Both the position numbers and the translations under genes were made by a program. The notes under the pieces are model-generated. The model was not told where the DNA came from. It saw only the letters and a program-made list of their open reading frames with translations, and did no database searches. Of a stretch of DNA of 64,000 nt, positions 13,465 to 30,440 are shown piece by piece. The DNA comes from Nitrospira lenta. Its GTDB lineage: Bacteria; Nitrospirota; Nitrospiria; Nitrospirales; Nitrospiraceae. How positions within the stretch are numbered: the first letter of the stretch is position 1; every line of letters starts with the position of its first letter. Location: contig CAMBDY010000005.1 of the NCBI GenBank assembly GCA_945865525.1, positions 1-64,000 of the forward strand, read 5' to 3'.

Positions 13465-14100
13465 TCATTTTTCGCTCATCACCGCATCGACCAACTCACG
13501 TACCGCCGACTCCACATCGTCTGCGCTAAGAATCGCCGTGATCACCGCCGCACCGAACGCCCCAGCCTGCCGCATCTCACGTGCGCGCGCTGCCGTGACT
13601 CCACCAATCCCCACAATCGGAATGCGGACAGCCCGACAGGCCTTTTCAAGCGTCTGAAGACCAAGGGGTGTACCAAACGCCTGCTTGGAGGGGGTCTCAT
13701 AAATCGGACCAAGAATCACATAATCTGCTCCCTGCGACTCAGCCCGCACCGCTTCCTCCACGCTATGTACAGAAATACCCAAAAGACGATTTGTTCCCAG
13801 CAACCGCCGTGCCACAGAAACAGCGAGACTATTACTACGCAAATGGGTGCCGACACCGTCCAGAGCCAAAGCGATATCAACCCGATCGTTGATAAGGAAT
13901 TGCGATCCGTCGGAATTCGTCAGGGCCTGCACTTCCCGTGCAAGCGTGACAAGGTCCCTAGCCGAGAGATCGCGTTCACGAAGCTGAATGGCAGGGGCTG
14001 CGACTGAGAGGACGCGCTGGAGCAAAACAACGAGAGACCGCCTCTTCGTCTGATGGCGATCCGTGACAAGCAGAAGGCGGCTCGAAAGTGTCAACATCAA
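13465..14100 (-). CDS. Thiamine phosphate synthase family protein, TenI (thiazole tautomerase)-like
   Basis: The 211-residue TIM-barrel protein has the ThiE/TenI core: LLLVTDR, AIQLRERDLSARDL, FLINDRVDIALA and a phosphate-binding IVGIGGVT. Two motifs point to TenI rather than ThiE: LGISVHSVEEA, which holds the histidine used by TenI thiazole tautomerase, and GPIYETPSK, where ThiE usually has a P-T-P/S-T-K type loop. The ThiE G-V/I-H-L-G-Q-x-D segment is replaced by GTHLRSNSL. TenI speeds aromatisation of the thiazole made by ThiG, and thiS-thiG lie just upstream. A bifunctional or true ThiE role cannot be excluded, and would be needed if no other thiE exists. Confidence 0.8.
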   Translation of the reverse strand: MMLTLSSRLLLVTDRHQTKRRSLVVLLQRVLSVAAPAIQLRERDLSARDLVTLAREVQALTNSDGSQFLINDRVDIALALDGVGTHLRSNSLAVSVARRLLGTNRLLGISVHSVEEAVRAESQGADYVILGPIYETPSKQAFGTPLGLQTLEKACRAVRIPIVGIGGVTAARAREMRQAGAFGAAVITAILSADDVESAVRELVDAVMSEK

Positions 14101-14240
14101 CAGGACAATGAGACAAAAGTGCTAAGCCTTGAGTGCTGAGTGGGACGCTCAAAACGGCTAGCCCACGCGGTTGTCGGGAAAACTGACACTCCACAAGCGT
14201 CCGGTAATGGGACGTTTGGTAATTAACCTTCTAATTTATC

Positions 14241-14628
14241 CTAATTTTTAGGGGATGTTTTATCCATTGCTATTGATATCTGGTCTGGATATTTCCACAT
14301 CGCACCAGTCAACATATCTACAATCCCAAAATCAATCACTGAGCCAATTACACCTGCCAATTGAGTAGTGGAAACAATTCGGGTTGTTTTAAAGTCGTAT
14401 CCATCGGCGGTGCAATTAGCAACTAAATCACCAGCGCCTTTCGAGACTTGCAATAAATTACTTCTGCCAGTGACAGTCCCAAGGGTAGCACCATCTTTAT
14501 TGACTACAAGGCATTTAGTCTCTATTGGGTCAATAGTAAATGAAATAACCCGAGTAGTTCCTTGCGTAATAGATGCACATCCGCTTATTAAAAATGCTAT
14601 TGAGGAAACTAATATTAGATTTTTTCAT
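14241..14628 (-). pseudogene. Frameshifted small lipoprotein gene in an AT-rich islet
   Basis: A ribosome binding site AGGAG precedes ATG at 14628, but the start frame is closed quickly. Removing one A from the A6 run directly after the ATG joins the start to the long downstream frame. It then reads MKNLILVSSIAFLISGCAS, a clean signal peptide with lipobox LISGC, followed by about 110 residues ending at 14241. The mature part (SITQGTTRVISF..., TVTGRSNLLQVSKGAGDLVANC, GVIGSVIDFGIVDMLTGAMWKYPD) resembles small lipoproteins of unknown function common in Proteobacteria. The region is visibly AT-richer than its surroundings and splits thiG from the tenI/thiE-like gene, suggesting recent gain. The defect could be a sequencing error, true loss, or slippage-controlled expression. 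Confidence 0.8.
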
Positions 14629-14742
14629 TAGTTCACTCCTGGAATTTTATTATTTATTTCCATTGGAGCACTTTTAAAGATTACAAAATAGGTCCGCCAC
14701 TAAAGAGAGTCTTTCCATCCCGCTCTTTTTTGGAGCATCCTC

Positions 14743-15516
14743 CTAGAGCATCCCTTCGATCGGGCTACTCGCCGTGGCATAGAGTTTTCTCGGGATACGC
14801 CCAGCTGTATAGGCCAGCCGCCCGGCGTAGACCCCGTATTTCATCGCCTCGGCCATAGCAATGGGATCTTTGGCCCCGGCGATAGCAGTGTTCATGAGAA
14901 CCGCGTTCGCTCCTAATTCCATCGCAAAGGCTGCATCGGAAGCGGTCCCGACGCCTGCATCCACGATGATCGGCACCTTGATCATTTCCATAATGATCTT
15001 GAGGTTATAGGGATTGCGAATGCCGAGGCCTGACCCGATTGGCGCCGCTAAGGGCATGACGGCAGGACAACCAACGTCCACCAGTTTCTGCGCCACGATG
15101 GGATCATCATTCGTATAGGGGAAAACAATAAACCCTTCTTTGACTAAAATTCTTGCCGCTTCGATCAAGCCCGCTGTATCGGGGAACAGAGTCCGCTCGT
15201 CGCCAAGCACTTCTAGCTTGATCAAATCAGACACGCCTGCAGCTCTGGCCAAGCGGGCATAACGCAGCGCATCTTCGACGTTGTAACAGCCGGCCGTGTT
15301 GGGCAGGATGGTGTACTTCTTCGGGTCAAGATAATCGAGCAAGTTCTCTTTGGAGCGATCGGTGATATTCACGCGTCGCACCGCCACCGTCACCACATCG
15401 GCGCCGGAGGCCTCAATCGCCTTCTTGGTTTCAGCAAAGTCCTTATACTTTCCGGTCCCCACCCAAAGCCGAGACTGAAACTCACGACCGGCAATGATTA
15501 ACGGATCATTCTGCAT
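14743..15516 (-). CDS. thiG: Thiazole synthase
   Basis: The 257-residue TIM-barrel protein makes the thiazole phosphate of thiamine from deoxyxylulose-5-phosphate, dehydroglycine and ThiS thiocarboxylate. Diagnostic segments are [52 protein letters not shown] and [12 protein letters not shown]. The ATG overlaps the end of thiS by 11 bases, indicating coupled translation with its sulfur donor. Downstream of the stop lies the AT-rich islet. All core family motifs are present and length is normal. Confidence 0.96.
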
Positions 15517-15766
15517 TCACAAAGCCCCTCTCCGTGACTTGAGTCTCCGTAGGCGCGCCGCCACCGATGAAACTTAAAATCTCCAATCGATCACCCTCGT
15601 GAAGACTTCGACCATTAAAATCTTTGCGATCCAAGATTTCCAAATTCAATTCCACCGCCACGCGCTCAGCCTTGATAGCAAGATCCCTCAGCAAGTCCCC
15701 GACCGTAGCATCTGCCCGACAATCCCGTGTTTCGCCGTTTACTTGAATTTGAATCGTCGCTGCCAT
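15506..15766 (-). CDS. thiS: Sulfur carrier protein ThiS with C-terminal extension
   Basis: The product from the ATG at 15766 is 86 residues (the ORF track begins at an upstream TTG). The first 70 form a ubiquitin-like Thi[29 protein letters not shown] and [11 protein letters not shown]. ThiS normally ends at this Gly-Gly, whose carboxylate is adenylated and turned into a thiocarboxylate. Here a further 16 residues, [16 protein letters not shown], follow, and the stop codon lies inside thiG. Either the tail is removed by a protease, as in the JAMM-processed ThiS-like protein QbsE, or it reflects a split ThiS-ThiG fusion. thiF is not in the window. Confidence 0.88.
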
Positions 15767-15873
15767 CACCAATCATCCTAGGGGACCAGAAATCTGGTTG
15801 TCAACAAATCCGATTTTACTCCGCCCCTTGCCTCCGCCACCATGACCACGTCACAATCATCTCACCACCGCCT

Positions 15874-29082: not shown

Positions 29083-29376
29083 TTAGTACCGATCGCCGCC
29101 GCGGCCACCGCCCCCGCCAGTGCGGGGCTCCTGCGGACGCGCTTCGTTGACGGTCAACGTGCGACCACCCAACTCAGTGCCGTTCAGCGCAGTGATCGCT
29201 GATTGCGCTTCCGAATCCGCGGACATTTCCACGAATCCGAACCCGCGGGACTGGCCGGTGAACTTATCCGTGATGATTCTGGATGAGGTCACTGCTCCGT
29301 GCACAGCAAATAAATCGCTCAGCTGTTGTTCAGTTGTTGAATAAGGCAAACCACCGACGTAAATCTTAGAACCCAT
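29083..29376 (-). CDS. RRM-type RNA-binding protein with glycine-rich tail
   Basis: A 97-residue single RRM: RNP2 is IYVGGL (residues 5-10) and RNP1 is RGFGFVEM (about 44-51). The tail EPRTGGGGGRGGDRY is glycine-rich. Such proteins are frequent in cyanobacteria and some Gram-negatives, where they are often cold-induced RNA chaperones. A strong AGGAGGAG site precedes the ATG, consistent with high expression. It lies upstream of an RNA helicase gene. The 263 bases upstream (29377-29639) hold no ORF and probably a long leader. Confidence 0.92.
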   Translation of the reverse strand: MGSKIYVGGLPYSTTEQQLSDLFAVHGAVTSSRIITDKFTGQSRGFGFVEMSADSEAQSAITALNGTELGGRTLTVNEARPQEPRTGGGGGRGGDRY

Positions 29377-29639
29377 TGGGCTCCTCCTTTGAAAATATGT
29401 GTTGTCTTGGACTGGAGATCAAAGTGAGGAAGGAATGGGCCGAAGACGCAAAGACCATGGCGCTCAAGGCTGGCTTCCGATCAAATTCCCACACAAAACC
29501 AAAACAACATCTGTCTGAGGCCTTGTCACTCTCTGCAGCATCACCACCAGGCCCTTCGCGATGACACACTCACGCCACTATACTCCTCGGGCTTCACAAA
29601 TACAAGCGGTGCGGCACCTGCGCGAAACGAGGTTGCTCG

Positions 29640-30440
29640 CTAATAGGCCGCAGGGGCAGATAACGGCCGCTGTGAAAACAGGGGAATCGCATGCAAGTTG
29701 TCAAAATGTAAGGAGTTTTGTCCTCGAATCAGGAGCCCGACTTGCCCGATCGCCAATGACTGATCTTCAGCTGTCACGACGAACTTTCCGTCAAAAAATG
29801 TTTCGATAAAATCCTTGCTGATAATCGTATTGCGCTGAATCCGCAATGTATGCCAGGGTGTCGCCTTGGGCAGAATCGGCGCCTGCGCAAGCCTCAGCTC
29901 CTTGCCATCGACCACTCGACTGATGTCCAGCGTCTTGGCCGCAAGATTGACCACCACGGCATAGAAGTGCGTGGCATCCCTCACCCCGAACACCACCCCA
30001 CCCACTCCTGCTGCGGCATCGAGAGGAAATCGCATCCGAACCGACACATCTGGATATTCATACTGAAACCCGTTGGCAACGATCAACCGGTAACAGGTCG
30101 TGGCCTGGCAGGATGAATTCACGGCCAGAAGGTTAGCTCCCGAGGGGGCCTCACGATCGCCCTTGACCATCCAATCGGCGGCCGGCCCCTCGCCGAACCC
30201 CAGCATCGAGAATCCGATCGGCGCCTCGTCGGACTTTTGCTGGTCGAAGGTCCAGCGATTGAACAGTCCGTCTCGGGCCTGATCTTTCAAGTTCGCTTCT
30301 TTTTCCGCATAGCTCTCGAGTTGGATGGCCTGAGACCCCTCGACAGTCAGGCCCCACTCACCAGCAATCACCACCAGCACGCCTAACAGGAAGACCCTGC
30401 CGCTCCACCAGGACTGATTACGAATACCACGCGTTTTCAC
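29640..30440 (-). CDS. Secreted protein with LamG/DUF1080-like beta-sandwich domain
   Basis: A 266-residue protein starting with GTG at 30440 behind GAGGGA. The N-terminus has an Arg-rich start and a hydrophobic segment (VFLLGVLVVIAGEWGL), so it is exported. The mature part resembles the concanavalin-like fold of the DUF1080/LamG families: WTFDQQ, VSVRMRFPLDAA, GVVFGVRDATHFYAVVV, WHTLRIQR, FFDGKFVVTAED, GQVGLLIRGQNSLHFDNL. It probably binds a carbohydrate or other ligand in the periplasm or on the surface; no catalytic residues were identified. Confidence 0.7.
   Translation of the reverse strand: MKTRGIRNQSWWSGRVFLLGVLVVIAGEWGLTVEGSQAIQLESYAEKEANLKDQARDGLFNRWTFDQQKSDEAPIGFSMLGFGEGPAADWMVKGDREAPSGANLLAVNSSCQATTCYRLIVANGFQYEYPDVSVRMRFPLDAAAGVGGVVFGVRDATHFYAVVVNLAAKTLDISRVVDGKELRLAQAPILPKATPWHTLRIQRNTIISKDFIETFFDGKFVVTAEDQSLAIGQVGLLIRGQNSLHFDNLHAIPLFSQRPLSAPAAY

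Follow-up and report, generated by a model that had tools for sequence, protein, structure and literature searches.

We found that the spacer between the thiamine genes thiG and thiE of a Nitrospira genome holds a lipoprotein gene of foreign composition whose reading frame is broken directly behind the start codon. Probably, this is a horizontally acquired gene that came to lie in a repeat-prone spacer, where a frameshift inactivated it very recently. The analysis covered a window of 64,000 nucleotides from Nitrospira lenta (contig CAMBDY010000005.1, positions 1 to 64,000 of the forward strand), to which all coordinates refer.

Open reading frames and profile matches give the order thiS, thiG, thiE on the minus strand. 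All three are intact: thiS (15506–15772) scored over the cut-off of TIGR01683, thiG (14743–15516) matched PF05690 (E 1.4e-112), and the gene for a thiE-type thiamine phosphate synthase (13465–14100) matched PF02581 (E 2.3e-53) and scored over the cut-off of TIGR00693. The end of thiG (14743) and the start of thiE (14100) are 642 bases apart. Within this gap, positions 14166–14715 have a GC content of 38.7%, against a window mean of 56.0%; the lowest value for 550 bp elsewhere in the window is 47.6%. The AT-rich islet proposed by a sequence-only reading of this DNA is thus real, but the limits it had been given, 14101–14742, are slightly wide, since 14117–14159 and 14714–14742 are native Nitrospira spacer. 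The same reading had the islet splitting a thiamine operon. The insert does sit in the thiG–thiE spacer, but none of the thiamine genes is broken by it, and the spacer is already 25 to 374 bp long in 22 relatives.

On the minus strand, a Shine–Dalgarno-like AGGAGT (14635–14640) stands six bases ahead of an ATG (14628–14626), the would-be start of the lipoprotein, which is followed directly by a run of six A (14625–14620) where the ATG frame and the lipoprotein frame diverge. The ATG frame as present (14530–14628) has 32 codons and a stop (14532–14530), and does not contain a lipobox. The lipoprotein frame (14241–14618), delimited from open reading frames, homologues and alignments, has 125 codons and a stop, with the lipobox LISGC. 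It starts LILVSSIAFLISGCASITQGT and is open from 14618 to 14244, with its stop at 14243–14241. The frame is without a start of its own: it has no ATG, GTG or TTG between the upstream stop and the lipobox cysteine, its codon overlapping the ATG is TGA, and the first standard start within it is a TTG at 14453. The earlier proposal of a lipoprotein frame ending at 14241 and broken at the A6 tract after the ATG is borne out in each of these particulars. In the close homologues whose upstream sequence we read, the start is in frame and the signal peptide ends with a GCAS lipobox. As such an in-frame start is absent here, the gene, as it reads in this assembly, is described as a broken member of its family and not as a working one. 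A weak sigma-70-like promoter match (14649–14678, minus strand, 9/12) is at chance level, with 2 such matches found against 1.5 expected; a terminator scan came out empty, and no stable RNA structure was found downstream (z -1.33).

A search for the lipoprotein's family, suggested together with that proposal, did find homologues. The closest one found is from the lake bacterium Polynucleobacter (L004; 73% amino-acid identity) and the next, at 42–47% identity, are mostly from Burkholderiales. Nine homologues share 26 invariant columns, of which the window copy retains 25; in the remaining one, it has Arg in place of Gln. The lack of a start codon would suit an open frame arising by chance in AT-rich spacer, but such an origin is refuted by the 73% identity and by the retained invariant residues, and we give it practically no credence. 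With the Burkholderiales members (for example those of Polynucleobacter sp. 30F-ANTBAC, Limnobacter and Comamonadaceae), the window copy has in common the lipobox GCASITQGT, two further cysteines, the GY and TGAxxKY motifs, the motif order and the length; in contrast to them, it has no in-frame start and lies in a Nitrospira-like genome. The window lipoprotein also matched the profile phrog_6823 (E 6.5e-5; residues 2–113 of 125 against profile positions 5–127 of 139), a family annotated in PHROGs as of unknown function, which was likewise matched by all seven GCASITQGT family members tested (best 1.2e-17). No Pfam or NCBIfam family matches the window lipoprotein, and no relative of it was found among solved structures. 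The modelled structure (moderate confidence, mean pLDDT 71.6) consists mostly of strands, and nothing in the PDB matched it at E 0.001 or better. An intact protein would be secreted and anchored by lipid, and would consist mainly of beta strands. Another contig of the host genome carries a native Nitrospira member of the same broad family (G000:C3:114341-114673, L106; match 1.2e-13), an intact lipoprotein of 210 aa with the lipobox sequence GCASIMHG. It shares the lipobox and the family match with the window lipoprotein, but is intact, distant in sequence and, having an extension at its C-terminus, longer by about 80 residues.

We compared the lipoprotein frame with the Polynucleobacter gene at the nucleotide level. 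Differences at codon positions 1, 2 and 3 number 29, 20 and 67, and dN is 0.22 against a dS of 1.64, a ratio of 0.14 that reflects mostly the period before the frame break. The third-position bias and the low ratio indicate that the frame evolved as a protein until recently. GC at third codon positions is 0.29 in the lipoprotein frame, compared with 0.57–0.68 in its neighbours and 0.23 in the Polynucleobacter gene. In addition, the gene is absent from the locus in all 22 relatives of the same genus in which thiG and thiE are readable there, and nowhere in the relatives does a homologue exceed 33% identity. Taken with the single lesion in an otherwise conserved gene, these results support well the earlier suggestion of a gene that was acquired recently and is already in decay. 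The transfer was presumably into Nitrospira. Since dS is near saturation, the donor would be only a relative of Polynucleobacter; moreover, Polynucleobacter itself may also have been a recipient, as a homologue of at least 47% is present in only 2 of 151 of its genomes. On these comparisons, the donor is better called a low-GC relative of such bacteria than Polynucleobacter itself.

The thiG–thiE gap of the relatives often holds a Nitrospira inverted-repeat element with the ends GGATGCTCAAAACG and CGTTTTCAGCATCC. In the window, the left remnant of this element (14117–14159), which has AGTGCTGAG-type repeats and the end motif GGACGCTCAAAACGGCT, aligns with the spacers of L022, L023 and L024; the motif occurs only once in the host genome. 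On the right, what remains of the repeat-bearing spacer, CCATCCCGCTCTTTTTTGGAGCATCC (14714–14742), reaches the thiG stop and aligns with the spacers of L023 and L024, not of L022. When the local alignments of the remnants were scored against 300 shuffles of the relative's spacer, none of the 300 was as good. With native remnants on both sides, the foreign segment would extend over about 14160–14713 (approximate borders, ~39% GC). We found no target-site duplication or terminal inverted repeat at the borders of the insert, no direct repeat across them (the longest border-to-border repeat is a 9-base inverted match) and no mobility gene within it. It is conceivable that the spacer is an insertion hot spot, where foreign genes land on the element and where the lipoprotein is kept off but revertible by the A6 tract; we regard this combination as highly improbable.

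The element itself, which is dispersed in the genus, is ~121 bp long and has GGATGCTNAAAACG ends on both strands, commonly 107 bases apart from start to start. Its exact end motif occurs in all 31 other same-genus genomes searched, in 1 to 20 copies each (reversed control, 0 or 1), and the host genome has no exact copy of the element end and one variant end. In the relatives L020, L024, L027 and L039, the thiG–thiE spacer is filled with arrays of a seven-base repeat (AGTGCTG, AGTCCTG) and with inverted copies of these. A literature search for such inverted-repeat elements in Nitrospira returned nothing relevant.

We considered whether the gene might be intact in the cell, the A6 reading being an error of assembly or consensus, or the state of a minority within a mixed population. 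Indel errors fall in homopolymers; the gene has a well-formed start site, all of the sequence past the A-run is conserved, and the host genome (1.80 Mb) is assembled in 39 contigs. However, ~52 kb of the window is collinear with a relative, G001, and in this part we saw no second frameshift within a convincing gene; the split matches examined, near 29470 and 55260, lie outside plausible genes. Errors are thus not frequent in the sequence as a whole, and one real lesion is more likely than an error. We therefore rate error or mixture as unlikely, though far from negligible, and regard the broken state as probably fixed in the population.

A real frame break could also be leaky, if RNA-polymerase slippage on the A-run allowed some full-length lipoprotein to be made. 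The lesion does lie in an A-run adjoining the start, and transcription slippage in A/T runs has been measured in bacteria, where it rises exponentially with run length (PMC5574713). The run is, however, short, and a one-base deletion (or a two-base insertion) would be needed to restore the frame. In the E. coli study of transcription errors, less than 1% of deletions began in homopolymer runs and no case of an error restoring a reading frame was found (PMC5574713), which makes leaky expression of this kind quite improbable. The sequence-only reading had offered, as its other option, a phase-variable surface lipoprotein controlled by replication slippage. The position of the tract right behind the start codon and the surface-type product would suit such a switch. 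However, a tract of six is short and common, the window having 26 A/T runs of exactly six, and the closest homologue starts ATGAATAAAACT, so the tract is not conserved. Nothing else hints at a switch; phase variation of the lipoprotein is unlikely, to the point that we give it hardly any weight.

Recent inactivation of an acquired gene thus remains the preferred reading. A lipoprotein gene of a mainly Burkholderiales family would have been gained by a small-genome Nitrospira-like bacterium on a segment of ~550 bp. The segment would have entered the thiG–thiE spacer, often element-filled in the genus, and displaced the middle of the inverted-repeat element. A very recent frame change in the A6 tract just past the start codon would then have abolished the function of the lipoprotein, and translation from the ATG would now yield only a 32-residue peptide without a lipobox.

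We also searched viruses, phages and plasmids for relatives. Viral contigs had none, either by protein query or by alignment, and neither had phage records. Plasmids gave three distant matches to the protein (29–34%) and nothing of note to the islet DNA. One of the three, from Azospirillum, is close to a lysozyme gene, and phage carriage of the distant relatives is therefore possible. A 21-base match of 14191–14211 to several Nitrospira genomes, apparently coding there as judged by eye, was set aside as chance.

A published parallel comes from the Great Lakes Nitrospira. Their genomes have a median size of 1.83 Mb and fewer pseudogenes than reference genomes, and include two genes related to photolyases whose best hits are in Betaproteobacteria (PMC9239080). 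The likeness lies in a reduced genome of similar size and in genes with betaproteobacterial best hits; in contrast to the lipoprotein gene, which is broken, the photolyase-related genes were reported as adaptations (PMC9239080). The host genome has only one DNA_photolyase match, so it need not belong to the Great Lakes population and may represent another one.

In this nitrifier of reduced genome size, the locus offers a small, well-bounded case of a gene gained and quickly lost again, that is, of ordinary genome evolution. It also carries two cautions: an annotation pipeline would miss the lipoprotein gene or misplace its start at the TTG at 14453, and the lipoprotein is not to be taken for a phase-variable antigen. 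Elsewhere in the window, we noted that the spacer at 29300–29640, upstream of the start of an RNA-binding-type protein (MGSKIYVGGLPYSTTEQQL), is near-identical to G001 over more than 200 bases; this spacer is possibly a regulatory leader.
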